IMG/VR virus record: IMGVR_UViG_3300041955_000060
Span: 1 to 46,501 of that record
Reading direction: 5' to 3' (one strand)
From: a virus
DNA: 46,501 nucleotides
Positions within the stretch are counted from its first letter, which is position 1. The number at the start of each line of letters is the position of its first letter. Positions 5,460 to 40,184 of the stretch are shown here, one piece after another. A model generated the notes under the pieces. It did not search any database. It saw only the letters and a program-made list of their open reading frames with translations, and was not told the DNA's origin. A program made the position numbers and the translations under genes.

Positions 5460-5602
5460 TTCTCAGAAGCAATACGCTTCAAGAACTCCGACATTGCCCT
5501 GAACGTATCGCTCTCCTTCTTCAGCTCCTTGCCACAAATGTAGCTCCACTTCTCGGCCCATTGCGCCCATAGCAATGCTGCAGTCTTATCCATCTCGTTC
5601 AT
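5456..5602 (-). CDS. Small helical protein, 48 aa
   Basis: 48 residues, Trp/Lys/Glu-rich and probably helical (LLWAQWAEKW, then FLKRIASEK). The frame is open upstream to 5683, but ATG 5602 overlaps the glycosyltransferase stop as ATGA and has GAGGAG upstream, so it is preferred. Family unknown. Confidence 0.6.
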   Translation of the reverse strand: MNEMDKTAALLWAQWAEKWSYICGKELKKESDTFRAMSEFLKRIASEK

Positions 5603-6324
5603 GGCCGCTGCGGACTCCTCCGCACGCTCTCTACCCACTCCTTGCTGGGCTTGCCTCCCCAGCTCTCCCAGCCAGTCCCCCATCGTCTATGATAGATGTC
5701 GCAGTTCACTTTCCAGTTCGCCATGTTCGTCCCATTGCGATAGTCCCCGCCCAAGTTATGAATCGTGCCCATTATCTCATGAGTCAAGAAACTGTCCCAC
5801 GCGTGCCACTCCGCGTCCCCTCCTGCAGCCCACACTTGACAAGCCAAGTCGTGGTCCTCCCAAGACGCCGGCAAGTAGTCCTCGAACCAGTTAGGCTTCA
5901 TCGCCTCCCACAGCTTCCGCGATAGACAGAAAATAGCTGTCGGAATCACTATCACGTATGTCATCGGGTCCGCCGTTTCCAGATATTCCCGCACCTTGTC
6001 TACGGCTCCCTCATTCCAGATAACATCGTTGCTGACGAACATCGTCCAGTCAGCGTGCGCTCCTTCGAAGCCATCCAGAATCAACTGGCCCCAATTCCCC
6101 ATCAATGAACCATTATAGTACTCTCTGATGTCAGCAGCTACCAAGCATGAATGAGTGGCCGAGCATACCTCTGGCTTCATCGGCAGCGCGTCCTGCGCAT
6201 GATACGCCACAACATCGCCCAACGCCTTGAACTGCTCTGAGGACTTACACGAGCGCTCTGTCAAGTCCATCAGCCCTTTATGCGGCCGAGGCAAATACGC
6301 AATCGTCCCGGTGAACAGCTTCAT
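5599..6324 (-). CDS. Family 2-like glycosyltransferase
   Basis: 241 residues with a GT-A-like pattern: an acidic SND near residue 98 in place of a strict DxD, and SWEDHDLACQ around residue 158, the ED segment that supplies the catalytic base region in GT2 enzymes. There is no transmembrane segment, so it is probably cytoplasmic. It is coupled to the upstream methyltransferase by ATGA. Together with three methyltransferases directly upstream it forms a sugar-transfer/methylation cassette. Donor and acceptor cannot be told from sequence. The GT fold is likely and the exact family tentative. Confidence 0.65.
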   Translation of the reverse strand: MKLFTGTIAYLPRPHKGLMDLTERSCKSSEQFKALGDVVAYHAQDALPMKPEVCSATHSCLVAADIREYYNGSLMGNWGQLILDGFEGAHADWTMFVSNDVIWNEGAVDKVREYLETADPMTYVIVIPTAIFCLSRKLWEAMKPNWFEDYLPASWEDHDLACQVWAAGGDAEWHAWDSFLTHEIMGTIHNLGGDYRNGTNMANWKVNCDIYHRRWGTGWESWGGKPSKEWVESVRRSPQRP

Positions 6325-6860
6325 GGCTTCAAAATCCTCACCATCTTCTCCATTCCAGCATCAATCTTAAGGCCCATCGTCAATAAGAACTCATCGGTTG
6401 CCTTCTTTACGCCGGGCCATCCGCCAACATAGTCATCCAGTACCAACACTCCGCCACGTTCAAGTAGCTCCCAGATATCAATCAAGTCCCCTGCCACTGC
6501 ATCATAAGAGTGGTCCGCATCCAAGAATGCCGCCTTGAACTTCAACTCAAGCGAATCAAGGTACGACAATGCCACCATGCTGCTCATCGGAACGATTACC
6601 ACGTTGCTCAGCCGCCCGACTGAATCAATGTTCTGAGCGAACTCTGGCAACACGAATCTCTCCTCCATCCCCGCCCCGCCATGAAACGTATCGACACAGA
6701 ACACAATACCTTCCAGTGTCAACGCTGATGCTGACAGCCCGAGCCACGAGCCTACCTCAAGAATCGGGCCTGTCCCCTTCGACATCCGAACCGACTCTCG
6801 TAGGAAATCCAGCTCATTGATGGACTCAAATCCAATTCCACGCGGAAGATAGCCACTCAT
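6321..6860 (-). CDS. Class I SAM-dependent methyltransferase (Methyltransf_24-like)
   Basis: 179 residues from ATG 6860. Motif I is ILEVGSWLGLSA, a mid-chain FLDADHSYDAV segment is typical of the Methyltransf_24 group (including glycan-linked enzymes), and GGVLVLDDY follows. A longer start at 6881 exists, but ATG 6860 overlaps the upstream stop as ATGA. It lies between another methyltransferase and a glycosyltransferase in one overlapping operon, which points to modification of a sugar rather than DNA. The target is inferred. Confidence 0.8.
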   Translation of the reverse strand: MSGYLPRGIGFESINELDFLRESVRMSKGTGPILEVGSWLGLSASALTLEGIVFCVDTFHGGAGMEERFVLPEFAQNIDSVGRLSNVVIVPMSSMVALSYLDSLELKFKAAFLDADHSYDAVAGDLIDIWELLERGGVLVLDDYVGGWPGVKKATDEFLLTMGLKIDAGMEKMVRILKP

Positions 6861-7402
6861 CGATTCCTCGCTATCGCCCACACCATTATCGGGGCATCGG
6901 GTTCATTGTACTGAGCCAACTGATACAAGTCTTTGTCTCTGTTGTTCATCTGCCATCCGAACACTGCCTTAACCGCCGACTTGTTACCCCAGCTACCAAT
7001 CATGACTTCCTGATAGTTTCTGAACAAGTACTCCAGCCCTCGCGGCATAAATCGCCAGTAGTCAGCCGGCATATCATGCGGCGGGAACAAACACACTGTC
7101 GTTACTACTGCGTAGCCTTCCGGCTTGAGCATTTTTTGCATGTTCTCCACCGCCACCCACGGCGCTTCGACGTGCTCCAACACTTGATTAGCAAACACCA
7201 GCCCGTAGCCAGTTCCATACGGCCTGACCGTATCATAGTTGCAAATGTCAATCTCTGGATACCACGCCTCCCTCACATCCTGAAACCCGAACTCTGTCCG
7301 CAGCTCGATTCCCGATATCTCGAATGCCCTGACTCCTTGCCTTGCCTCCAAGAACGGCCTCAGTGACTCGTACATTGCCGCCCGGTATACGTCTGCCGTC
7401 AT
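6857..7402 (-). CDS. Class I SAM-dependent methyltransferase (Methyltransf_11-like)
   Basis: 181 residues with a shortened N-terminal SAM region; the clearest motif is VFANQVLEHVEAP, the post-II segment of Methyltransf_11, followed by ML+PEGYAVV. The glycine-rich motif I is poor (FEISGIE), so cofactor binding should be checked. The start at 7402 couples to the upstream stop by ATGA; an alternative ATG at 7414 would overlap more. It is the middle gene of three consecutive methyltransferases. Confidence 0.7.
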   Translation of the reverse strand: MTADVYRAAMYESLRPFLEARQGVRAFEISGIELRTEFGFQDVREAWYPEIDICNYDTVRPYGTGYGLVFANQVLEHVEAPWVAVENMQKMLKPEGYAVVTTVCLFPPHDMPADYWRFMPRGLEYLFRNYQEVMIGSWGNKSAVKAVFGWQMNNRDKDLYQLAQYNEPDAPIMVWAIARNR

Positions 7403-8052
7403 GTTCTCTTCCAACCGAACGCCATATGAAACTCCCTCGGCCCTTCGAAACTACCACGAACGAACTGTCCGTTGAAATACTGAACGATGTCGTCTCGATA
7501 CTCAAAGCCCTCGCGGCTGAATATCTCAATCCACTCTGGCTTCAGTATCCGCGTCACATGCAAATCGTGCCCATCTTGAATCGATTCCCCAACTGTCGTG
7601 CTCGCTATAAAGAACCCCGCCGGTGCCAGATGCTTACGAATGTTCTCGAACAACCCACGATGCTTTTCAACCGGGATGTGCTCCAGCAGCTCCCATGCTG
7701 TTATCGCTCCAAACTTTATCGGTATGTCCGTCTCTCCCCAGTACAACTGAAACGGCTCGGTCACATCGCACGTAAACAGATTCTCCGGTATCCTCGCCCA
7801 TGCCACCCTCTTAGCCTTTTGCGAGAAATCGCTGCCTTCCAGTCCGACTGCCCTCTGCCCGTCCTTAAGACAGTCCTCTACGAACCCACCGCCCGCACAT
7901 CCCAAATCCAAGATAGGCGTCCACTTTATGAGCGGATACAGCTTCTCATTGAACGCCTGATTCCGCGAGCAATCTTGCTTCGTGCCAAGCGGATACAAGT
8001 AGTCCAACGAGTCCGTCGCCAGTAACTTCGTACACTCCAGCCGAATGTGCAT
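7399..8052 (-). CDS. Class I SAM-dependent methyltransferase
   Basis: 217 residues. Motif I is ILDLGCAGGGF, the acidic end of strand 2 is LEGSDFS, and AWELLEHIP is a typical post-II segment. It resembles Methyltransf_23 enzymes acting on small molecules or glycans. It starts after a 13-nt gap from the previous gene. With the next two methyltransferases and the GT2-like gene it forms an ATGA-linked block (8052-5599) with a likely role in decorating a glycan. Confidence 0.8.
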   Translation of the reverse strand: MHIRLECTKLLATDSLDYLYPLGTKQDCSRNQAFNEKLYPLIKWTPILDLGCAGGGFVEDCLKDGQRAVGLEGSDFSQKAKRVAWARIPENLFTCDVTEPFQLYWGETDIPIKFGAITAWELLEHIPVEKHRGLFENIRKHLAPAGFFIASTTVGESIQDGHDLHVTRILKPEWIEIFSREGFEYRDDIVQYFNGQFVRGSFEGPREFHMAFGWKRT

Positions 8053-9900: not shown

Positions 9901-10734
9901 CTATCCTAAGGAAGAGACAGTATTTATAGCTTCGGGTGCCACCCCGAACTTGAACAGCCCGCCCAATCCGAGCTTCCTGAGTCTGGAGTGCATATCCGCG
10001 TGCTCTTCCATGATTCCGCGCTCTATCTGCCCTGCGTGAGCTATATCCAACCCCTCTACGACGGCTGCTTCAGCCCCTTCTACATCCATTTTTAGCACTA
10101 CAGGCTCCCCATCAAAAAAGTCTAACAGCTCGTTAAGCGATATAGTCTCTACCTCCGCGCCGGGCACCGTCTTATACATCCCGGGATTGCTGCCCCGCTG
10201 GAGGCCAACCTTGCTGTTGCCCTCTTTGGCTACCGCCCGGTGTAGCACGTAGACGCTCTTCAGCCTATTGTGCCCCACATTCCGCTGAGCCAACCATGCC
10301 GACTCCTTATCCGCCTCAACCGCCAAGACCTTCTTAGCTCCCTGAATAGCGAACCAGACTGTCGAATCGCCCGAACAAGCCCCGATGTCCAGAACGTTCT
10401 TACCACGCACTGGCAGCAAGTCTCGATACTCGCCATCCTCAATTATCGACCTGACACCCCACACGTCCCCGCTACCATCCCCCCTTGCCTCGAACATCAC
10501 GTTACGGCCGTCCAAAAGGATGTTCTCGCTCCACACTGTAATCTTCCACCCGCGTGACTTCAAGTACACCAGACTATCTACCTCATTGAATCCGCCATCC
10601 CGAGTCAATATCACCCCATTCTTCAGCACCAACATTGGCACGTATTCGGCCCCGTAAACCTCGTCTGCGTTGAGCAACACCTGCTCGTAGAGCTGCCTAC
10701 TCACCTTGCTTTTGCTTCCCAGCACATCTCTCAT
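9901..10734 (-). CDS. FkbM-family methyltransferase
   Basis: 277 residues. The SAM motif is VLDIGACSGDSTVWF, followed by VLAVEADKESAW, and a late VVLKMDVEGAEAAVVEG segment is the hallmark of FkbM methyltransferases. Members O-methylate sugars and other small molecules. The start is ATG 10734, overlapping the terminase stop as ATGA; a GTG/ATG slightly upstream is less likely. The N-terminal 100 residues do not match the catalytic core. It bridges the packaging gene and the surface-modification block. Confidence 0.85.
   Translation of the reverse strand: MRDVLGSKSKVSRQLYEQVLLNADEVYGAEYVPMLVLKNGVILTRDGGFNEVDSLVYLKSRGWKITVWSENILLDGRNVMFEARGDGSGDVWGVRSIIEDGEYRDLLPVRGKNVLDIGACSGDSTVWFAIQGAKKVLAVEADKESAWLAQRNVGHNRLKSVYVLHRAVAKEGNSKVGLQRGSNPGMYKTVPGAEVETISLNELLDFFDGEPVVLKMDVEGAEAAVVEGLDIAHAGQIERGIMEEHADMHSRLRKLGLGGLFKFGVAPEAINTVSSLG
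9921..9932 (-). promoter_or_regulatory. TATA/BRE promoter of the surface-gene operon
   Basis: On the minus strand AAGC is followed by TATAAATA (9921-9928). The TATA centre lies about 27 nt from ATG 9898, the spacing expected when transcription starts at the start codon. Confidence 0.7.
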
Positions 10735-12104
10735 ATGCCCCACGCTGACCAGCTAACGGGCCGCCGGTCCAAAGCCATCCGCCGTATCGGGTTCAACTGG
10801 ATGCCCTCGCCAAAGGTGTCCCACACCAAGTCCCCCTCACCACAGAAACACAGCGCCAATGCGTCCACACAGTCGTCATGGCCCCCGCCCTTCACGATAT
10901 GATACGAACCGTCGCTGGACTGCTTGGCCGTATAGTTACCGAACTGCCCGGCCAACTTCCTGTCTTCCCCGCTGATAGTCAGCCGACGCTGTTCCAACCC
11001 CAGCTTCAAGTTGCTATACATTCTATTGCGGGTCGCCACCGTGAATACTACGCCTGTAACACTAACGTTGCGCTCCCTAACGATGTCCAGAGCCCCTACC
11101 CCCAGCCCTGTCGCGTCCACGTAAATCTTCATGTCAGGATACTGCCCAGCCAGCTCCACTATCCGCCCAGCCGTCTCAGTAATCAAATTGTGCCCGTGCG
11201 TCTCCAGCCACAGCAACTTGTAGTGGTTGTCCGTCGTTATCGAACAAATAGCGATAGCCGTCTCGTCGCTTCCAGCCCGTGCCACGTCTACCCCCATCAC
11301 CAGCTTAGCCCCGACTGGCAGCGTTGTCGGCAATCCATACTGATAGTCGTCCATCGCTGGGACAACCAACGAATAAGGGAAATACGAATTGCTGTCCGCA
11401 ATGAACTCCGCCTCGAACTCCTGCTGATACTGGTCGATAGTCATCGTCTCCTTCATCTCCTGCAAGAATCGCGGGTCGATGAATGGGCTATCCGCCGAAC
11501 GAATCTTGAAGACATCCCACTCCTTGTCCTTCTCTTTCTTCAGCTCCGTAAGCCGATACTGATTATAGAAGAAGCCACGCTTACCGTAGGGCGTCCCACT
11601 CATTACCAACTGCTCCCCACGCACCGCCATACTCGGCCTAATCGCAAGGAACACCGCATCAGGAATCAACGCCGCCTCATCGAAGATAATCATGCTTGCC
11701 GCGAAACCACGGATGCTCGCCCCCTCATGCCCCGCCGGGAGACAGTGAATCCGCGAACCCGAATCGAACTCTGCATTCGACATTGTGAGCCGCCGTGTGT
11801 GCTGCTTGATGAACTCATTGAACGTACAGAAGTCGTAAATCTTGTCGAACATCAGCCCTGCCTGTCGTTGTGTGGGGGCCACAATCAAAATCTCCTGATT
11901 CTTACGTGTGAGCGCCCGATGCAACGCCTTGGCCGCCAGCGTCGTCGTCTTGCCGCACTGCCGCCCCCAGATAACTATGCTGTTCTTCTCGCTCTCCAAC
12001 AGCTCCGCCTGATACCTTGTCGGCTTTAGGCCGAGGATGGCGTAACTAAACAGTGTCGGACTTGACAGCTTCTTCTTCAGTTCCTCTGCTGGGTTCTCCA
12101 CCAT
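10731..12104 (-). CDS. terL: Terminase large subunit
   Basis: 457 residues, full length. ATPase: Walker A GRQCGKTT (47-54), Walker B MIIFDE (138-143), motif III SGTP (169-172). RNase H-like nuclease: Asp273 (GVDVARAG), Asp330 (DATGLG) and Asp410/Asp411/Asp414 (HDDCVDA). It packages viral DNA into the prohead and cuts concatemers. The start at 12104 has a near-perfect ribosome site (GGAGGTGA) and lies 59 nt inside the 3' end of the DpdA gene. Such a deep overlap with a strong ribosome site suggests the two proteins are made together. Unusually, capsid genes are not adjacent; surface-modification genes follow. Confidence 0.95.
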   Translation of the reverse strand: MVENPAEELKKKLSSPTLFSYAILGLKPTRYQAELLESEKNSIVIWGRQCGKTTTLAAKALHRALTRKNQEILIVAPTQRQAGLMFDKIYDFCTFNEFIKQHTRRLTMSNAEFDSGSRIHCLPAGHEGASIRGFAASMIIFDEAALIPDAVFLAIRPSMAVRGEQLVMSGTPYGKRGFFYNQYRLTELKKEKDKEWDVFKIRSADSPFIDPRFLQEMKETMTIDQYQQEFEAEFIADSNSYFPYSLVVPAMDDYQYGLPTTLPVGAKLVMGVDVARAGSDETAIAICSITTDNHYKLLWLETHGHNLITETAGRIVELAGQYPDMKIYVDATGLGVGALDIVRERNVSVTGVVFTVATRNRMYSNLKLGLEQRRLTISGEDRKLAGQFGNYTAKQSSDGSYHIVKGGGHDDCVDALALCFCGEGDLVWDTFGEGIQLNPIRRMALDRRPVSWSAWGI

Positions 12105-13683
12105 CCGTCACCTCCTTGGCTTCTATGTCAACTGCTTTAGCCCGCTTTCGAATCTTCTCTACCAGCCTATCGCCGTACTCCGCTTGAACATCCGCTAATA
12201 TCTGCTCTGTGTTCAACGCCATGCCAACTTGAACCCCGTCCTTCGTCATGTTCAGGGCCACTTTCATGCCTGCCCCGGGCATCCCGTACTTCACCCGATA
12301 GAGAAGCTCCATCGCCTTCAGCAAGTCGTTCTCGAACTGACTTACCGCCGAGTCCGTGGCCCCTCCCAGCCGTGCCTCCATGTACGACGCCCGTTGATAC
12401 CGCACGAACTTGTCCGCTATCAAGTCTTCCATCTTGCGGGTAATCTGCTCTTGATTCCGCGTACTCCCGCCCATCTTACGCCATGTCGGGATGAAGAAGC
12501 ATAGTGCGTCCTTCTCGAAGACGGGACACTTGTCGTTCACGATGCAGTTGTTGCACTCCAGCGCACTCTTCTGCAGCTCCCGCGCATACATGCCTGACTT
12601 CAAAGCGTTGAAGCGACTCTTAGCGTAGATTACCTTGCTTCGCCCAAGCCTATCCGTATCTCCTGCCCACATTGGCAGCGGCGTTCCACCCGCGTTGGCC
12701 AAGTCCACTGCCGTCTTGTAACCGGGCTCTTCGTTGTTATTGTCAACCCACTTCTGCAGCTCAATCAAGTTGTAGAAATTCAAAATCCGATACCTGTGCT
12801 CCTTGACAGCCCTCTCCCGCTCCTCCTGCGTGAACAGCTGCATGACAGGCTCCTTCATGATTTGATGCAAAATTATCGGCTTGTGTCGCAAGTCTTCGTG
12901 CCCACTGAGCTTCTTGCCCTTAGCAATGAACAAGCTTGCCTGCTTGCCTGCCTGCAGCCACGATGTCGAATCTACGCTTGTAATCCACTTGCCGTAGCTG
13001 AACAAGTCTGCCGGTGTAAACGCGAACATGTGCACGAAACCGCACTCCGACAACTGTTGCAGAAACAGCCTGTCTCCCGCGTTGTCTTTCGTCCACCCAC
13101 TCCCAAGCCCAAAGTACTTGCAGCCCTTCTCCTTCCACTTACGGGCTGTCTCAATCGTATCCCCAGCATTGCTGTGCATGACGAAGACAATCGGGAGCCC
13201 CTTCGCCAGCCATTCCTCGCGCCATGCGTCTACCTTCTCCTGCCCAACCAGCTTCTGAATATCCAACTCCACCAGCCAGTCGTAGGCGTCTCGATTCTCC
13301 TCCGCCCACTTCATGTAGTTGTGAACGTACTCATCTTCCTTGCCCGTCCACTCCCGAGCCCCTTCGCTTGTTCGGATGTCCCGAGACGAAGCGTTCGCCT
13401 TGCCCTGCTCAGCTACATCATTGTTCAAGAATGAGAACGCCCCGCTATCAATCATCACCTTGCCGCCGTACTTGCTACGGAACTCCTTGAGCTGCTGCCA
13501 TGCCGTAGACTTGCCCTGCATGTGCATGTAGCTCATCATCACCGCCTTCGGCTTGTGTTCCAGAGTCGATTCCTCCAGCTTCACCAAGTCAGGCCAGCTC
13601 GATTCGAAGCCCGAGAAGTACAACGTTACGGCCATATCATACTCACTATCGGCGGAGACTCCTCTGGGTACGTACACCAACAT
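12046..13683 (-). CDS. dpdA: DpdA-like 7-deazaguanine DNA transglycosylase with extra C-terminal Cys/helical domain
   Basis: Numbering is from ATG 13683 (545 aa). The TGT/DpdA signature is YFSGFESSW near the N-terminus, DSGAFSF (about 79-85) and SVDSTSW (about 236-242); the two Asp residues match the catalytic pair. DpdA enzymes exchange guanine in DNA for preQ0 or a derivative. After about residue 365 there is a region outside the TGT fold: Cys377, 380, 386 and 395 (CNNC...DKCP...LC) and a helical segment. This lies where a small terminase subunit is expected and overlaps terL. Start choices: 13683 (GGAG 9 nt upstream), 13752 (better ribosome site, 127-nt overlap) or 13635 (just before the first fold strand). 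FolE, QueE and QueC in the window support the function. Confidence 0.85.
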   Translation of the reverse strand: MLVYVPRGVSADSEYDMAVTLYFSGFESSWPDLVKLEESTLEHKPKAVMMSYMHMQGKSTAWQQLKEFRSKYGGKVMIDSGAFSFLNNDVAEQGKANASSRDIRTSEGAREWTGKEDEYVHNYMKWAEENRDAYDWLVELDIQKLVGQEKVDAWREEWLAKGLPIVFVMHSNAGDTIETARKWKEKGCKYFGLGSGWTKDNAGDRLFLQQLSECGFVHMFAFTPADLFSYGKWITSVDSTSWLQAGKQASLFIAKGKKLSGHEDLRHKPIILHQIMKEPVMQLFTQEERERAVKEHRYRILNFYNLIELQKWVDNNNEEPGYKTAVDLANAGGTPLPMWAGDTDRLGRSKVIYAKSRFNALKSGMYARELQKSALECNNCIVNDKCPVFEKDALCFFIPTWRKMGGSTRNQEQITRKMEDLIADKFVRYQRASYMEARLGGATDSAVSQFENDLLKAMELLYRVKYGMPGAGMKVALNMTKDGVQVGMALNTEQILADVQAEYGDRLVEKIRKRAKAVDIEAKEVTDGGEPSRGTEEEAVKSDTV

Positions 13684-14072
13684 GCGTGCCCGCTCCACGG
13701 TGGGCCGCAACAATACTTGAACGTCTTTGGGTAGCCAACCGGCCTGTGACATCTCACTCCTTTGTCTTCAGCCAAGAGCGGATGCCCGCACCTTGGACAT
13801 GGCGGCCCATTTCCTTTTGCTGCCAGTAGCCGTTCACCCAAAGCATTAGCAATCGGATACAACTCCTCCCGCTCATTAAGCGCCTTGAGAATCTGCCGCA
13901 GCCACCATCCCTGTATGTCCGCAGCCATGTTCCCCATCACCCCGATTATCACTGGAAAGTTGTACTCGCTCCCCAAGTAGCTGTCGCCGAACATAGACTC
14001 TGACTCCAAGAACCTTTTCAGCTCGCTAACCGGGTCCTCATGAATCCTCTGCCTCCACTCCTCGACTGTCAT
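13626..14072 (-). CDS. Hypothetical protein with C-terminal zinc-binding segment
   Basis: 148 residues. The first 85 residues are helical with no recognised fold. The rest has CPRCGHPL, CHR, CCG and HACWC, likely zinc ligands. The last 58 nt overlap the dpdA frame (127 nt if the longest dpdA start is used), so one stretch may code in two frames. It starts directly after the FolE stop (TAGATG). Its place between folE and dpdA suggests a role in base modification, but nothing in the sequence proves this. Confidence 0.65.
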   Translation of the reverse strand: MTVEEWRQRIHEDPVSELKRFLESESMFGDSYLGSEYNFPVIIGVMGNMAADIQGWWLRQILKALNEREELYPIANALGERLLAAKGNGPPCPRCGHPLLAEDKGVRCHRPVGYPKTFKYCCGPPWSGHACWCTYPEESPPIVSMIWP

Positions 14073-14606
14073 CTACTTCAACCCCACCAAAGCCAAGAAC
14101 TCATCCCGCGTTGCCTGCTGCTCGAAAGCTCCCTTGAATAGACTCGTAATCGCCTCCTCGCCCTCGTCTCCAATCCCCCGCATCGTCATACACAAATGCT
14201 TCGATACGATGACTACGATGGCATCCTTAGCCTCTATCAACTCAAGAATCTCCCGCGTCATGCGCTCCTGCGTCTGCGCCTGATACCCACACTTCTCAAC
14301 GATTCGCGGTAGCTTGCTCAACCCGTAGATATTATCACCGGGAATGTAGCCCAAATGCGCTTTTCCTTCGAACGGTAGCAGATGATGCGAACACTCTGCG
14401 TACACTCGGATGTTCCGCACGATTACCATGCCGCCGTAGCGCTCCTCCTGCGGGAACGTTGTGAGCTTGTCGTAGTCATGCTTCCGCCCCCACTCATCGT
14501 AAGCTGCCTTGACCCGTGCCGGGGTGTTCGCGTACTCTTCCTCGCTGAACCGCCAGCCGTAATCTCGTTCGAGTGCTTTCATCACCGCTCGAATCTCATC
14601 CTCCAT
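14073..14606 (-). CDS. folE: GTP cyclohydrolase I (FolE type I)
   Basis: 177 residues. Zinc and catalytic residues are in place: Cys72 with His74/His75 (ECSHHLLPF), Cys139 (HLCMTMRG), and the GLSKLPRIVE and QAQTQERMT segments bind substrate. It makes dihydroneopterin triphosphate from GTP, the first step to preQ0. The start overlaps the endonuclease gene by 11 nt and has GAGGCAGAAG upstream. With QueE, QueC and DpdA in the window, its product most likely feeds DNA modification rather than folate. Confidence 0.93.
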   Translation of the reverse strand: MEDEIRAVMKALERDYGWRFSEEEYANTPARVKAAYDEWGRKHDYDKLTTFPQEERYGGMVIVRNIRVYAECSHHLLPFEGKAHLGYIPGDNIYGLSKLPRIVEKCGYQAQTQERMTREILELIEAKDAIVVIVSKHLCMTMRGIGDEGEEAITSLFKGAFEQQATRDEFLALVGLK

Positions 14607-15294: not shown

Positions 15295-16077
15295 CTAAGG
15301 GAACCCACCGGTGATTTGCAGCCTCGGGCTGATGTGCACCTTCTTGAATGCCAGATACGTCTCTTGGAATGCCTTGACAACGCCAGCCTTCAAAAGCTGC
15401 AACGCCTCGTCCATGCTCTTGTCGTCATTCGTTAGCGGCATCAACCAGATGTCGGCATCCTTCGGCAGCATCATCGATTCAACCCAGTCCCGCAAGTCGT
15501 ACACGTCTGCCTGCGTTCCCACCACAAACTTCCACGCTACCTGCACCCCGCAGTTCTGCCACGCCTTGACCTTCTCAATCGTGTACTCGCTCGGATACAA
15601 CTGATACTTCGGGCTCATGTCGAAGAAGTCGATGTTCTTCCGTGCCCACTCGTTCGGAGGCTTCGAACCGTTCGTCTCAAAGTGAATCTTCAGCCCCTTC
15701 GCCTTCAGCCCCTCTATCAACTTGTGAAACGCCTCGCTGTCCTGCCGTAGCATGGGCTCGCCGCCCGTTACCATGACAATCTTTGCCCGCTTGTAGGTGG
15801 CGAACGCCTTTGTCTCCCACGGAGCCAGAGCCAGATGCTTACAAGCCTCCTTCCAAACTCTGTCCACCAGCTTGTCCACGCCCCATACCTCTCCACGCTC
15901 GCTGCCGTCCCACGTCCACTTCGTATCGCACCAAGATAGGCCGCCAGTATTGTTCCGCCAATGGCACTTCATGTTGCAGCCCATGAACCGCAACACCACG
16001 ATACGTTCGCCTGCATACGGCCCTTCTCCCTGCCAGCTTTTGACTGGTGTGCGCTTGTCTACGCCCGCAATCTCCAT
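15295..16077 (-). CDS. queE: 7-carboxy-7-deazaguanine synthase (radical SAM)
   Basis: 260 residues from ATG 16077. The iron-sulphur cluster cysteines are Cys34, Cys38 and Cys50 (CNMKC...WCDT), preceded by SWQGEGPYAG and followed by TGGEPMLR, all QueE hallmarks. It turns carboxy-tetrahydropterin into 7-carboxy-7-deazaguanine. The cluster loop between the second and third Cys is longer than in canonical radical SAM proteins, as is usual for some QueE. The start at 16077 has AAGGTGA 6 nt upstream and matches the family N-terminus; 16125 (GAGGTG upstream) would add 16 residues. QueD, which makes its substrate, is not seen here. Confidence 0.92.
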   Translation of the reverse strand: MEIAGVDKRTPVKSWQGEGPYAGERIVVLRFMGCNMKCHWRNNTGGLSWCDTKWTWDGSERGEVWGVDKLVDRVWKEACKHLALAPWETKAFATYKRAKIVMVTGGEPMLRQDSEAFHKLIEGLKAKGLKIHFETNGSKPPNEWARKNIDFFDMSPKYQLYPSEYTIEKVKAWQNCGVQVAWKFVVGTQADVYDLRDWVESMMLPKDADIWLMPLTNDDKSMDEALQLLKAGVVKAFQETYLAFKKVHISPRLQITGGFP

Positions 16078-16106
16078 CCTGTTCACCTTACCCCGAACCA
16101 TTCTCC

Positions 16107-16640
16107 TTATGCCTGCAATGACCATCGCCGCACCTCTTCCTCGAATGCCTTGCCTGCTTCTCCGTTGTTCATGTTCATCAGCCTGAGCGGCGGGAGACAT
16201 GTTGGCGTTCCGCTTGTGTTCTCACAGTACAATCCCATCCACGCTGCCTCCGAGTTCCCCGCCGTTGCGTCAGCCCATTTGACTCGCTTCTCCGCCTCTA
16301 CATCTGGGATGACCCCAAACTGCTTGTGGATAGCCGCCCTCACCCGTGCCTCCAGCTCCCTGTATCCTGCCATGCAATCCATGTGCTTTAGCGGGCCGGG
16401 AACGTCTACCAGATACGCCTCAGAGGCATCATGTAGCAACGCCCGTAGCTTGTCCCTTGGCTCTACCAGCTCACTGACGAACAACGAGTGCTGCGCTACG
16501 CTCCACCACCTGCCGTGCCCTGCCCACCTACACAACTTCCCCAGAGCGAACCCTATCTCCGACTCCAGATACCGGAAGTCCTCAGGCCGTTCAAAGTAGA
16601 ACACCTGCCCACTATGCGTGGCAATGTACTCCCCTGTCAT
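16107..16640 (-). CDS. HD-domain phosphohydrolase
   Basis: 177 residues. Metal ligands: His in SVAQHS, His-Asp in LLHDASEA, and a later Asp in KWADAT. The GQVFYF...GHGRWWSVAQHS pattern matches phage HD hydrolases related to YfbR-type 5'-nucleotidases. It may dephosphorylate nucleotides or pterin intermediates. It lies directly upstream of queE, and the same gene neighbourhood is seen in other viruses with deazaguanine genes; a role in that pathway is inference. It starts right after the previous stop (TAGATG). Confidence 0.85.
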   Translation of the reverse strand: MTGEYIATHSGQVFYFERPEDFRYLESEIGFALGKLCRWAGHGRWWSVAQHSLFVSELVEPRDKLRALLHDASEAYLVDVPGPLKHMDCMAGYRELEARVRAAIHKQFGVIPDVEAEKRVKWADATAGNSEAAWMGLYCENTSGTPTCLPPLRLMNMNNGEAGKAFEEEVRRWSLQA

Positions 16641-18752: not shown

Positions 18753-18931
18753 TCCTTCACCTTCAATGCTTTCAACACTTCGTCCATGCTCGCCTCTGCC
18801 GCCTTCTTCGTCTCAAACCCGCTGGACCCCCACTGACAGAACTTCTCTCCCCGCTGTTCAATCTTGTAGGCCCAGCCACCCTTCTCCCGCCATAGCCCCG
18901 CCCAAATACTACTGCTGCCCACTCGCTTCAT
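18749..18931 (-). CDS. Small hypothetical protein, 60 aa
   Basis: 60 residues. WAYKIEQRGEKFCQWG followed by FETKKAAEA resembles the three-strand-plus-helix DNA-binding pattern of AP2-like or integrase N-terminal domains, but this is weak. The ATG has a strong GGAGGTGA site and lies 23 nt inside the end of the nuclease gene. Confidence 0.6.
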   Translation of the reverse strand: MKRVGSSSIWAGLWREKGGWAYKIEQRGEKFCQWGSSGFETKKAAEASMDEVLKALKVKE

Positions 18932-19616
18932 CAGCTATCACCTCCTCCTTTTTCTTCTTTTCGGTCCACTTCCGATGAAACACGTCAGACAAATGCTTGG
19001 CATCCTTCTTCCCAAGCACCTGCGTCAACTCAGTAGGAGATGCACTCACTACCTTATCAAGGCTACGGAACGTCTTAAGCAATGCCTCGCCCTTCGTTTC
19101 GCCAATCCCATCGATGCCACGCAGAACGTCCACGCTCTCCTCGTTAGCCGTCCGCTTGTCCTTCGTGAACCCGAGCATTCGCGGGAACGTCTCTTCCTGC
19201 GCATCGCCAACCTTCTGAGTCAGCCTCTTGATTAGATTCACTGTCTCAGACATGTTCTCCGTAGCCATCAGTGTGATGTCATTCCATCCATACATTATGG
19301 ATGCCTTCGTTCCCGCAAGCCTAGCCTCCGTTATCGAAGAATCCCACTTTGAGGCGTCCTCCAGCAATCCTTCAATCAACAATACCTTCTTGTAGCCCTC
19401 GAACTTTTCGAGCCCCTTCATCTGAGCCCACAGCCGTCCGTCCTTCAAGCTTGCGAACAAGTCGTTGATTTCCTTGCGCTCGATGACGAATCGTTGCTTC
19501 GGCCCTTCGATGATGAAGTCGCCAAACGTCAACGTCCGCATTTGTGCCCCCGGAATCAGTGTCAGCAGCTCCTGCGCCAGATGCTTCGGTTCCCGCGTGT
19601 CAATGATTAGCGTCAC
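18909..19616 (-). CDS. XPF/ERCC4-type nuclease with helix-hairpin-helix domain
   Basis: 235 residues from GTG 19616 (GTGA overlap with the previous stop); ATG 19634 is the alternative. Catalytic motif: Asp6/Glu9 (IIDTRE), Asp33 (FGDF), Glu46-Arg47-Lys48 and Asp52 (ERKEIND), the XPF/Mus81 nuclease signature. GIDGIGETKGEALLKTF (about residue 165) is the start of an (HhH)2 DNA-binding domain. There is no helicase domain, as in crenarchaeal short XPF. It would cut branched or flapped DNA during repair or fork processing. A lysine-rich tail follows. Confidence 0.92.
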   Translation of the reverse strand: MTLIIDTREPKHLAQELLTLIPGAQMRTLTFGDFIIEGPKQRFVIERKEINDLFASLKDGRLWAQMKGLEKFEGYKKVLLIEGLLEDASKWDSSITEARLAGTKASIMYGWNDITLMATENMSETVNLIKRLTQKVGDAQEETFPRMLGFTKDKRTANEESVDVLRGIDGIGETKGEALLKTFRSLDKVVSASPTELTQVLGKKDAKHLSDVFHRKWTEKKKKEEVIADEASGQQ

Positions 19617-19930
19617 GGCTCGGGTGCTCCACATGACTTGCATCGACCATCATCAAACCCTCGCTTCGTCCCGCAGTAATCACATCTCTTTTCGAGCGCT
19701 CCTTGTAGGAAATTGCCGCCGCCGATGATAAAGGGCAGCATACCGAAGCATCCCATCACTCCAACTGTTGACGTTGCGTAGGCGTAGGCTCCAGTTACCG
19801 TCCCTCTAAGCGGTTCGATTTCCCGAGGGTCAACCCCAGCCTTGTTGCCAAGCCAGTTCCACGCTTCGGCTTCCGCTTGCTCGTGACTTACCAAAACAGG
19901 TGCTTCCTGCGCTTTTCTAAACCAACTCAT
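19613..19930 (-). CDS. Hypothetical protein with zinc-ribbon C-terminus
   Basis: 105 residues. The N-terminal half is amphipathic, a Gly-rich hydrophobic stretch (GVMGCFGMLPFIIGGGNF) sits in the middle, and CDYCG...CKSCG forms a zinc ribbon at the end. The hydrophobic stretch could be a membrane segment. It is coupled by ATGA upstream and GTGA downstream. Family unknown. Confidence 0.65.
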   Translation of the reverse strand: MSWFRKAQEAPVLVSHEQAEAEAWNWLGNKAGVDPREIEPLRGTVTGAYAYATSTVGVMGCFGMLPFIIGGGNFLQGALEKRCDYCGTKRGFDDGRCKSCGAPEP

Positions 19931-23162: not shown

Positions 23163-23412
23163 TTTTCTCCTTCAATTTCTTCTTAAATTCCGCCAATTCA
23201 TTTCGTGCCGTACGTAATGCCTGTTGTTTCATCTTTACTTGAACCTGCAAACATTTCAAATCATCTTTGTCCCACAATGGCTGCATACTCTTCTCATACT
23301 CAACTTCGTGCTTCTTGCACCGCTCAATGCCCGTGGTCTCCGGACAGAAATCATCCCAATGAACTACTGTCTTACACCCGCAATAATCAGTTGCGATAAC
23401 CTTCTCTGGCAT
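23155..23412 (-). CDS. Zinc-binding/coiled-coil protein, 85 aa
   Basis: 85 residues. The first half has CGC, C, CKKH as possible zinc ligands; the second half is a Lys/Glu/Gln coiled coil. Its ATG overlaps the polymerase stop (TAATG), so it may be made with the polymerase and could be an accessory factor; this is inference. Confidence 0.6.
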   Translation of the reverse strand: MPEKVIATDYCGCKTVVHWDDFCPETTGIERCKKHEVEYEKSMQPLWDKDDLKCLQVQVKMKQQALRTARNELAEFKKKLKEKNE

Positions 23413-25367
23413 TACTTCGTCTCCTCTAAATACACATCAAGCGAAATCTTAGGCTGCTTCTGCGGAAGACACGTCTCCAATCTCTGCACCATTGGTTCTA
23501 TTTGCTTTTTCCAAATTACGTTCAAATCAAGCAATTTAAGGATTTCTTCATCTGTTCTCCCGTTTCGAACAATCGTTTGCCCCTTGGGCCCAACCCAATA
23601 AGTTACAAACCCAATAACTCCTTGTCCCTTATCCGTAAGTTGCTCATAAGCTTTCAAATGCTGAACCTTTACTTTATAATCACGTTCCGTGTCTATACTC
23701 TTAGTAATCGCCAAATCGTCTAATGGAATCTTACCACCAAAAAATGCTTGTCTTTCTGCCACAACTGCGTCACTAAGCCTCTTACCTACTTCATCTTGCG
23801 GCCCTGTTAACATAGCTCTAAGCAGTGTTTCTTGACAATCCCTTGCGTGGGGACTCCAATCGTTTCGAATCATCTCCAACCCCTTAACGATAAGCTCGCC
23901 GTCCTCCGTCATAACCGCATATCGCTTCTTGGTGGCCTCTCCTGCCTTCTTGCCAGTGCCCCCGAAAATAAGGAACCGGCTCGCATAATACTCAAGCTTG
24001 ACGGGATATGGTGCCAATCGCTTGTTGACAATCTTCAATACCGCTTCCGCCTTATCTTTCGGAATCTGAATCGAACACGAATCCGTGTCGCTGACAATCG
24101 GAACGAACCCCAAGTCCTCCGCAATCTTCCGCAGCTCCATCAGCTGGTCCCGTGCGTTGGACGTGATGAACGCCGCAATCAGCCGGTTGCTATATCTGAA
24201 CCCGCCGTTGCCGAAGATGCCGTACGACGAGTTGGCCAGCTTCTTGTAAGCCTCCCGGAGCGCCCCAGTGCTCGCTGCCTTGAGCGCCACGAACTCTGCC
24301 TCCGACTTCTGCATCACTCGCCACACCTCCTCCCCCTCGCCTTTGTACTGGTTGTTGATGACAACGTTCGGATACAAGCTCGTATAGTCGAACATCGCCG
24401 CACCGTCGTAGATGCCCGGTTCGCCGTACAACACCAACCCGCCTTGGTAGCTCCCTTCCTTCTTCTTGAAGCCGTGCCCGCCTTCCAACCACAGCCCGAA
24501 CTTGCTGCGGTTCTTCATCAGGTAGTTCTCCCACATAGCGATGGCCCGCAAGTTGTCGGGTGCCGGCATGATGCCCGTCAGGCTCCCCAACGCGTACTCC
24601 GTGCCAATCAAATCCAGCTTCTTGATGATAGCCTCCATAACTCGACAATCGTTCTCGTTGTACGGAATCAACCCTACCTCATCTGGGTCGAGCTTCTTCC
24701 CTACCTTCTCCCGCCGAGCTACCACATCCAACCCCCGCCGAGCATGTCTCGGACTGAACGCTGCGTACAACGACATGCTATCAATCTTTCGAACATGATT
24801 CCAGTACTCGTTGAATCCGCCGCTCAAGTTGTTCAAGATGCGGAAGTCATACTTGTCCCCGTTCCATGCCGTTACCGCCGCCACCTTATGCGCCTCAAGA
24901 TACTGAAAGTAGTCCTTCGGCTCCGTGAACGACTCGTACTTGCCTTCCAGAACCGAGCCAATCAATGCCAGCTTCCCCGTCTTCCTGTCGCTTTCGATAT
25001 CCATGTATGAGATGCGGTCGGGCAGGACCCACTCTATCTCCCCGTCTGCCCCCAGCCGCCTATCGAGATACACGATGTCATCCTCCGCCGATTCCTTAGC
25101 CTTTGCCCGTAGCATCTTTGTCAAATGCGGGGACATCATCTCAATCTTCCACATCTCCTTCTCTTCGATTGCGTTGGCCTTCAGAATCCGTATCTTTTCC
25201 TTCTTGCAGCTGACTACCCCGAACCCGCCCTTCAGCTCCGCGTCTGAGTAGAAATACGGATAAGGAATCTCTTTGCCTATTGTTACTTCGGACACAGTTC
25301 CGTCTGCTCCCATTATCCAAATTCTGTTACCACCACCGTAACCCGCCGACACCGCCTTAAACTTCAC
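23412..25367 (-). CDS. polB: Family B DNA polymerase
   Basis: 651 residues. Exonuclease: D123/E125 (YMDIES), D171/D174 region (AWNGDKYDF), Y236/D240 (YNENDC). Polymerase: YQGG near 308, motif A DYTSLYPN (327-334), motif B KKLANSSYG (375-383), motif C SDTDS (426-430). All key residues are present, so proofreading and synthesis should both work. It is about 100 residues shorter than typical archaeal PolB, mostly between motifs A and B and at the C-terminus. The start is GTG 25367 with GGGAGG 5 nt upstream. It is the main candidate for viral replication. No helicase gene is seen in the window. Confidence 0.95.
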   Translation of the reverse strand: MKFKAVSAGYGGGNRIWIMGADGTVSEVTIGKEIPYPYFYSDAELKGGFGVVSCKKEKIRILKANAIEEKEMWKIEMMSPHLTKMLRAKAKESAEDDIVYLDRRLGADGEIEWVLPDRISYMDIESDRKTGKLALIGSVLEGKYESFTEPKDYFQYLEAHKVAAVTAWNGDKYDFRILNNLSGGFNEYWNHVRKIDSMSLYAAFSPRHARRGLDVVARREKVGKKLDPDEVGLIPYNENDCRVMEAIIKKLDLIGTEYALGSLTGIMPAPDNLRAIAMWENYLMKNRSKFGLWLEGGHGFKKKEGSYQGGLVLYGEPGIYDGAAMFDYTSLYPNVVINNQYKGEGEEVWRVMQKSEAEFVALKAASTGALREAYKKLANSSYGIFGNGGFRYSNRLIAAFITSNARDQLMELRKIAEDLGFVPIVSDTDSCSIQIPKDKAEAVLKIVNKRLAPYPVKLEYYASRFLIFGGTGKKAGEATKKRYAVMTEDGELIVKGLEMIRNDWSPHARDCQETLLRAMLTGPQDEVGKRLSDAVVAERQAFFGGKIPLDDLAITKSIDTERDYKVKVQHLKAYEQLTDKGQGVIGFVTYWVGPKGQTIVRNGRTDEEILKLLDLNVIWKKQIEPMVQRLETCLPQKQPKISLDVYLEETK

Positions 25368-39092: not shown

Positions 39093-39105
39093 CTATTTAT
39101 ACCTT
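39093..39105 (-). promoter_or_regulatory. TATA/BRE promoter of the tail tube gene
   Basis: AAGG followed by TATAAATA on the minus strand, same as 45133-45145. The centre lies 27 nt from ATG 39070. Confidence 0.7.
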
Positions 39106-39789
39106 GTGCTGCTCTCCGAGGGCGCGTCTTATCTCGCCGTTACGTGTCTCGCTCTCGTAGTGCTTGTCCGCGTAATACACCGCTGCTCCTGCTTTCACAT
39201 CCGCTTCGAACCATCCAGTTGTGTCGATTCCGTTGCTGGCCAAGGCCACCCAAAATCGATAGCACGCGGGACAAGCCCCGCACCGACCCTCTTTACCAGA
39301 GTAGCAACTTACGACTCCCTTCAGCACGTCCATCGCATCTGGCTCATTTCGTATCAACCACCCAACCAGCTGCCCCTTTGTCTTGTCCCAGAACGGGCTG
39401 AACACCTGAATCAACGGCGTCCCCTTGTGCCGAATCGTGTTCAAAGCCGCCGTCATAACATTGAACGCCGTCTTGCTCTTATCTTCGCTGTCGTCTCCCT
39501 CAACCCCTATGATGGCCACCCGAATCACATCCTCATCCATCCATTCCTCAACTACCGCGTTGTAGGCTATTTCCGCGAACATCAAATTGCGGTAGGGGAT
39601 ATGCTTCGTGGCTCCTATCTCCGCCGTCGGAACCTTGAGTGCGATGTAGCCCACGTCATCTGGCAGACGATTTGCTTCCTTCTCTGAGTACTCCGTGCCC
39701 AAGTCCAAATACAAGCACAGCTCAGGCTTCAAAAATCGCCGTGCAATCGTGCTGTCCAACCCGCCGCTGTAACAAAGAACGGTCTTCAT
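39097..39789 (-). CDS. queC: 7-cyano-7-deazaguanine (preQ0) synthase
   Basis: 230 residues from ATG 39789 (ATGA overlap with the neck gene). The PP-loop is SGGLDST (8-14), and the zinc cysteines are in the C-terminal part (SCYSGKEGRCGACPACYRF). It turns 7-carboxy-7-deazaguanine into preQ0 using ATP and ammonia, the step before DpdA. It lies within the virion-protein genes, over 20 kb from folE, queE and dpdA, which is unusual and suggests late expression. Confidence 0.93.
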   Translation of the reverse strand: MKTVLCYSGGLDSTIARRFLKPELCLYLDLGTEYSEKEANRLPDDVGYIALKVPTAEIGATKHIPYRNLMFAEIAYNAVVEEWMDEDVIRVAIIGVEGDDSEDKSKTAFNVMTAALNTIRHKGTPLIQVFSPFWDKTKGQLVGWLIRNEPDAMDVLKGVVSCYSGKEGRCGACPACYRFWVALASNGIDTTGWFEADVKAGAAVYYADKHYESETRNGEIRRALGEQHKV

Positions 39790-40184
39790 TGTAGTGCTCG
39801 CTTCCACGCTCTCTCAATAAGATGCTTGCCCGGGATTCCTCGCTTCTTAATCTTCAACATGATAGCCCACGTTACATCGTGTGTCTCCCGCGTTCCTCTC
39901 ACACCGAGCTTACGTCTAACCCATCTCCGAATAGCATCATAGGGCGGCATGCTGCCGGGGCTCCGTCCCTCTTCAACGAAATCCGCATACGAAGTCGTCA
40001 TAACCACAGTCCCCTGCTCTTCATCAATCTGAATTGATTTCAGAAGACGCCCCGTATCGCTGACACCCTCAGATTCTATCTCCTCACGCAACCTCTGTGC
40101 TACCCGCCCAAGATGTTCGTGATAAGCTTGTCTTTGCAGTTCCGCCTGCTCTTCATCCAACCAGTCGGGCCATCTCTCGGGCAT
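39786..40184 (-). CDS. Neck/tail completion protein (HK97 gp10-like)
   Basis: 132 residues. VSDTGRLLKSIQI followed by SYADFVEEGRSPGSMPPYDAIRRWVRRK is the pattern of the HK97-gp10-like family that closes the head-tail joint. Size and gene order also fit. It is coupled by ATGA to QueC, an unusual neighbour. Confidence 0.8.
   Translation of the reverse strand: MPERWPDWLDEEQAELQRQAYHEHLGRVAQRLREEIESEGVSDTGRLLKSIQIDEEQGTVVMTTSYADFVEEGRSPGSMPPYDAIRRWVRRKLGVRGTRETHDVTWAIMLKIKKRGIPGKHLIERAWKRALQ

Follow-up and report, generated by a model that had tools for sequence, protein, structure and literature searches.

In the viral DNA stretch IMGVR_UViG_3300041955_000060 from IMG/VR (46,501 nucleotides, the full length of the record, called the window below), the gene of a DpdA transglycosylase, dpdA, is extended by a four-cysteine helical domain and overlaps by 59 nt the next gene on the same strand, terL, which encodes the large terminase subunit. 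The locus raises the question whether the extended protein (P0001) only modifies the viral genome or also recognises it for packaging in place of a small terminase subunit (TerS), as had been proposed in an earlier note on this DNA. Phage DpdA is established to exchange guanine in viral DNA for a preQ0-type base (Hutinet et al., 2019, PMC6884629). Small terminases are difficult to identify from their sequence, and the choice of DNA for packaging in phages with modified bases is an open question; if the protein in the terminase slot derived from DpdA, it would be a candidate physical link from modification to packaging. The fusion of DpdA with the Cys domain turned out to exist already in PHROG and in named phages, where it had passed without comment, and the interesting part is the DpdA link to an actinophage small-terminase family. 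The best combined explanation, to which we give an even chance, is a probably active DpdA with a DNA- and/or TerL-docking module, the family serving as, or being ancestral to, the DNA-recognition partner of TerL.

The fusion protein and its C-terminal domain

P0001 belongs to the phage DpdA family, as indicated by its match to phrog_887 (the PHROG 'queuine tRNA-ribosyltransferase', i.e. DpdA, with a profile of 509 positions; Table 1) and by the presence of both catalytic aspartates, D102 and D261, the latter being the putative equivalent of the nucleophile of tRNA-guanine transglycosylase (TGT). The TGT/DpdA signature pointed out previously (YFSGFES, DSGAF, SVDSTSW) and the cysteines at positions 400, 403, 409 and 418 were all recovered. 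Histidine H196 is reported to be conserved in DpdA and absent in DpdA2; either H193 or H241 of P0001, both conserved in the alignment of 19 DpdA proteins, could match it. The AlphaFold2 model of P0001 had a mean predicted local distance difference test (pLDDT) score of 54 overall, with higher values in the barrel core, and Foldseek listed for it only generic TIM barrels with OMP decarboxylase at the top, TGT not being among the listed hits, so that the DpdA identity rests on the sequence. With the DpdA of phage 9g (phrog_887) the protein has in common the TGT barrel with its catalytic motifs and the occurrence of 7-deazaguanine synthesis genes in the same virus, here FolE, QueE and QueC, while no QueD was found in this fragment. 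The 9g-type enzyme, however, has ~317 aa and ends after the barrel, whereas P0001 has ~170 further residues with the Cys/helical domain, and its gene overlaps terL. Judging from these features, P0001 is probably an active DpdA.

The C-terminus had been described in the earlier note as lying outside the known fold; it does lie outside the TGT barrel but within the known family, since this part alone aligned to positions 365–478 of phrog_887 (E=2.5e-5). Direct searches with P0001 were empty, both for its C-terminus against phages and Pfam and for the whole protein by sequence against PDB; the links came through relatives. Single-protein searches of IMG/VR with P0001 or its TerL and a search of a genome-contig collection found no relative as well, and the IMG/VR relatives were obtained by a scan with a three-sequence DpdA alignment, a six-sequence alignment being too divergent.

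Two arrangements were present among the relatives: the Cys domain was either fused to DpdA or encoded by a separate gene beside dpdA. The same fusion was found in the IMG/VR record L009 (511 aa), and full-length fusions were present in the Streptomyces phages BRock and GiJojo and in three others. In L008, L011/L012, L013, L014 and Bacteroides phage BS162P1 a separate protein of 230–256 aa with a C-terminal Cys domain was encoded just after dpdA, and in L010 the corresponding gene was located one gene further. A motif-only DNA pattern, C-x2-C-[YF]-[MI]-x-D-K-C-P, run over all IMG/VR recovered seven stretches, every one of them DpdA-linked (fused or beside dpdA), including three new fusions, L054 (525 aa), L057 (515 aa) and L058 (486 aa), which brought the number of other IMG/VR contigs with the fusion to four. 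The search for the same fusion in related viral contigs, which the earlier note had recommended, was thus successful. With a hidden Markov model (HMM) of the DpdA-linked set, the P0001 domain scored 41.4 bits (E=6e-11) in a leave-one-out comparison and 46.7 bits with more members. By its sequence, the Cys/helical domain is a recurrent DpdA-associated extension, and it is almost certain that P0001 is a DpdA with a DpdA-linked domain. Because the domain travels with DpdA, a mainly terminase-related identity was discarded as the simplest reading.

A chance fusion or frameshift in the assembly, joining dpdA to a separate gene, was considered as well, because the two parts are separate neighbouring genes in Bacteroidota-type phages. 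Such an artefact is extremely improbable: fusions in the same order occur in L009, L054, L057, L058, BRock and GiJojo, and a sequencing error was rejected on account of this recurrence. The window gene is furthermore read in a single uninterrupted frame, and good ribosome sites precede both dpdA and the gene that follows. The overlap and the ribosome site of terL inside dpdA, both noticed earlier, were seen: the terL start is preceded by AAGGAGGTGACGG-ATG within the dpdA frame, and the ribosome sites before both dpdA (AAAGGAGTGAG-ATG) and terL make both starts look real.

Two side observations concern dpdA itself. An intein-like insertion interrupts dpdA, giving a 732-aa open frame, in L003 (6914–9112; MT835482) and L014 (5890–8088); in MT835482 it falls within the active-site motif (SSDS...insert...TTWLGG), an essential site being where inteins are usually located. 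In the window, a Cys-rich open reading frame (ORF) of 148 aa (13626–14072, minus strand) lies between folE and dpdA and extends over the first 127 nt of dpdA. Unless this ORF is spurious, dpdA would begin at codon 40 (13635), near the start of the relatives; the strong ribosome site favours 13752.

Related proteins at the small-terminase position of actinophages

The Cys segment of several relatives weakly matched phrog_6902 and phrog_16015, both annotated as 'terminase small subunit', and a sensitive tblastn search led to gp9 of Gordonia phages. Kvothe gp9 (465 aa), whose gene shares 4 nt with the terminase gene gp10, matched phrog_6902 over its full length, phrog_16015 over residues 291–455 (E=1.2e-29) and phrog_887 over the Cys region (E=2.1e-4). 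Relatives were detected by tblastn in 116 phage records of Gordonia, Tsukamurella and Rhodococcus, and in each of the eight genomes inspected (Kvothe, Jumbo, Kampe, GMA3, Mbo2, Gmala1, ReqiDocB7 and Reynauld) the gene lies immediately before terL, being annotated as two genes in ReqiDocB7. In passages of the GMA phage paper the small terminase is described as typically located upstream of the large one, a recognised pattern with homology support in some cases (PMC4524720).

When the HMM of the DpdA-linked domain was run over 8103 ORFs, these TerS-slot proteins ranked directly after the DpdA-linked ones: 14 of their ORFs had E values from 1e-6 to 2e-3, the next unrelated ORF had 0.19, and no reversed ORF was below 8.8. 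Jumbo, Gmala1 and GMA3 scored weakly with this model (E 0.4–4.3) and represent deeper branches of the same family. Profile-profile comparison of the Cys domain with the TerS-slot proteins gave E=6.8e-7 and 2.7e-7 at a probability of 92–93%. Conversely, the TerS-slot model run over whole phage genomes either found nothing or matched the dpdA-linked Cys gene alone (BS162P1, E=4.4e-5; GiJojo, 5.7e-4; the L009 and L010 records, 1.5e-3). Homology of the Cys domain to that of the actinophage TerS-slot proteins is therefore very likely on sequence grounds, and a domain without any terminase relation was rejected by the combined PHROG, tblastn, HMM and profile-profile results.

The N-terminal half of the TerS-slot proteins was modelled with AlphaFold2 from eight IMG/VR members with Katyusha/Kvothe gp9 as the query. 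Strands and helices alternated over residues 11–246 with pLDDT mostly of 70–90 and low confidence beyond. The best PDB match was the tRNA-guanine transglycosylase 7a3v (E=9.5e-3, probability 0.87), with 7a6d in third place, and the other top matches were mostly TIM barrels, none of them at E<=0.001. In BFVD the list began with members of the same family and an uncharacterised protein of a myovirus; the first named match beyond these, with E=5.5e-4 and a probability of 1.00, was the queuine tRNA-ribosyltransferase of the Microbacterium phage Megan. Lower in the list came the modelled DpdA proteins of phages Mufasa8 (Arthrobacter) and Bella96 (Mycobacterium). In hhalign the N-terminal profile aligned with that of 19 DpdA proteins over 122 collinear columns with E=1.3e-3, at a probability of only 19% (reversed sequences, E=0.24). 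Against the DpdA fusions alone the comparison was weak (E=0.044), and the barrel assignment consequently depends on the structure and the wider DpdA profile. Neither the DSG nor the SVDS motif could be recognised in the TerS-slot proteins. Their N-terminal half appears to be a degenerate TGT-like barrel, apparently catalytically dead, and descent of these proteins from DpdA is likely. P0001 thus shares with this family (phrog_6902/phrog_16015; Kvothe gp9, Jumbo gp6, GMA3 orf1) a two-part build of TGT-like barrel, model-based in the actinophages, and four-Cys helical C-terminus, as well as the position upstream of terL. The actinophage proteins differ in the unrecognised DSG/SVDS motifs and in the lack of QueC/QueD in their phages, and the detectable sequence similarity is essentially confined to the Cys domain.

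Intermediate states were found among the fusions. The DSG aspartate was identical in 19 of 19 aligned DpdA proteins and the SVDS aspartate in 16 of 19; BRock, GiJojo and L058 have Ser or Ala instead, and neither QueC nor QueD was found in their records. BRock gp36 and GiJojo gp181 have the same two domains in the same order as P0001, a length of ~500 aa and matches over the whole phrog_887 profile, but differ from it in the substituted aspartate, the missing QueC/QueD and a distant terL. The four fusions with the SVDS aspartate (window, L009, L054 and L057) came from records with QueC and/or QueD, and neither gene was found in the eight TerS-slot phages. The two-domain architecture thus seems, from these sequences, to outlive its catalysis, and the series from a catalytic fusion through a fusion without the aspartate to a TerS-slot protein suggests a second, non-catalytic function; with so few and mutually related members, it represents a correlation and not a test.

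The same distribution bears on the possibility that the Cys domain docks a partner instead of DNA, e.g. QueC for precursor channelling, or serves as a TGT-like dimerisation element. TGT enzymes act as dimers and have zinc near the active site, which counts for this possibility, and preQ0 has been suggested to be channelled from Gat-QueC to DpdA in phage 9g (Hutinet et al., 2019, PMC6884629). However, the DpdA proteins of 9g, Dp-1 and mycobacteriophages have no Cys domain, and this domain is kept in genomes without QueC or QueD, making such a role improbable.

Modification, packaging or both

From the family and its motifs, the TGT-fold barrel of P0001 would exchange guanine in the viral DNA for the 7-deazaguanine produced by the FolE, QueE and QueC of the virus. 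The four-Cys knuckle, for which we infer probable zinc binding, would form together with the helices the DpdA-associated domain and may dock on the viral DNA and/or the terminase, so that modification of the genome and its delivery to the packaging motor would be combined in P0001. This dual role in modification and packaging is plausible but unproven. In its full form, i.e. a bifunctional DpdA/small terminase that modifies guanines, hands the genome to TerL and favours the packaging of modified DNA, with the enzyme half dead and the small terminase surviving in actinophages, it is regarded as possible, with a probability clearly below even. If it were true, the actinophage terminase subunit would descend from a DNA-modifying enzyme, and the results suggest a protein family common to base modification and packaging. 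Such an origin would also account for a large actinophage family that owes its name to position alone, and the idea is accessible to tests in Gordonia phages, which can be cultured.

A plain modification enzyme, whose probability also lies below even, would have its Cys/helical domain as a specificity or processivity subunit delivering viral DNA or sequence context, the terL adjacency would reflect a late operon, and the actinophage 'TerS' would be misannotated DpdA remnants with another role. It accords with every DpdA-linked Cys protein being fused to DpdA or encoded beside it, as in all seven IMG/VR motif hits, with the remote terL in relatives where it was located, and with dpdA-que-folE-terL and queD-terL adjacency in unrelated phages without the Cys domain, which makes adjacency alone not special. 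It leaves unexplained why the slot directly upstream of terL is kept across more than 100 phage records and why the architecture survives once the catalytic Asp and the synthesis genes have been lost.

Several results weigh against a packaging role of P0001. Its homology to the TerS-slot family is visible between family profiles only: the TerS-slot profile found no match in the whole window record, and P0001 with the TerS-slot HMM reached 12 bits (E=0.056), which falls short of the family profile. No classical TerS domain of Pfam or PHROG was matched in P0001. The fold link of the N-terminal halves comes from moderate-confidence models (pLDDT 61.6) and weak profile scores, and the names of the actinophage TerS proteins, according to passages of the GMA phage paper, are mainly positional (PMC4524720). 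Catalytic DpdA-Cys genes were located ~14–50 kb from terL in the other relatives where terL was found. Genes for 7-deazaguanine commonly lie near terL, which operon organisation could explain. The seven fusions compared are not independent lineages, and the persistence of a non-catalytic protein could also reflect regulation that has no connection to packaging. What stands of the small-terminase link put forward in the earlier note is the homology to proteins upstream of terL that seem to keep a degenerate TGT-like barrel; what does not stand is the priority of this link, as the domain is first of all a recurrent DpdA extension, terL is distant in other viruses and the TerS labels are positional. 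The opposite case, a known DpdA subfamily extension with no terminase relation, came close to what was found (phrog_887), except for the terminase-slot homology.

No match to small-terminase families was obtained among the window proteins scanned, in agreement with the earlier statement that none is found elsewhere in the window; since the record is a linear fragment without end repeats and the scan covered part of the ORFs, this does not show that the virus lacks a separate small terminase. No report of a relation between DpdA and the terminase was found in open-access titles, abstracts and passages, the scope leaving out subscription papers and preprints.

Gene surroundings

The coordinates of the features are given in Table 1.

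Table 1. Features of the dpdA-terL region and 7-deazaguanine genes in the window
Feature	Position	Strand	Evidence
terL, large terminase subunit	10731..12104	-	PF03237 E=1.9e-18; PF17289 E=2.3e-7; phrog_2 E=3.3e-52
Ribosome site of terL, within dpdA frame	12108..12117	-	AAGGAGGTGA then CGG-ATG
dpdA-Cys fusion gene (P0001)	12046..13752	-	568 aa; phrog_887 E=2.6e-21, residues 38-522; Shine-Dalgarno AAAGGAGTGAG before ATG
TGT/DpdA barrel, residues 43-272	12937..13626	-	alternating beta/alpha in AlphaFold2 model; Foldseek matches are TIM barrels
DSGAF motif, D102	13435..13449	-	Asp identical in 19/19 aligned DpdA proteins
SVDSTSW motif, D261 (putative nucleophile)	12958..12978	-	Asp in 16/19 DpdA; Ser/Ala in BRock, GiJojo, L058
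Cys knuckle, C400-x2-C403-x5-C409P-x8-C418	12499..12555	-	4 Cys and Pro invariant in DpdA-linked set; 4 Cys also in actinophage TerS set
Helical hairpin, residues 431-489, R..E..GG signature	12286..12462	-	alignment and model secondary structure
C-terminal helices, residues 515-549	12106..12210	-	model secondary structure, low confidence
folE-type GTP cyclohydrolase I	14073..14606	-	PF01227 E=4.5e-46
queE-type radical SAM	15295..16200	-	TIGR03963 E=9.3e-20, below curated cut-off; true start uncertain, first ~50 aa overlap upstream gene
queC	39097..39807	-	PF06508 E=5.3e-11; phrog_1550 E=5.9e-14

Genes of 7-deazaguanine synthesis or insertion adjoined terL in several unrelated viruses: queD, folE in actinophages and dpdA in the window. 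The gene abutting or overlapping terL was queD (PTPS; PF01242, E=4e-27 to 9e-31) in three Bacteroidota-type phages (L045, 1647–2192; L046, 1706–2239; L048, 2306–2842), and folE abutted terL in Hedgerow, Sour and Nicole72. In the actinophages L005, L042, L043 and L044 a ParB-like or regulator gene, dpdA, que genes and folE stood in a row directly upstream of terL, with no small terminase annotated in the stretches read. The dpdA-que-folE-terL clusters of Hedgerow, Bipper, Sour and Nicole72 resemble the window in having 7-deazaguanine genes directly upstream of terL, but it is folE or another small gene, not dpdA, that abuts terL there, and their DpdA is shorter; the Cys/TerS profile had no match in these four genomes.

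The terL of BS162P1 (L048, 2835–4001) belongs to a 910-aa frame, which enters an intein-like sequence (VQKCYAEDTLINLPYGDYATIKDVVERK) after the Walker B region, and a large-terminase frame of 910 aa is also listed in MT835482. Elsewhere in the window, a row of glycosyltransferase-like and methyltransferase-like genes (5599–8052, minus strand), recognised from their translations only, possibly serves surface or glycan modification. An ERCC4/HhH nuclease (18909–19643) and a family B DNA polymerase (23412–25367), both on the minus strand, would fit an archaeal host.

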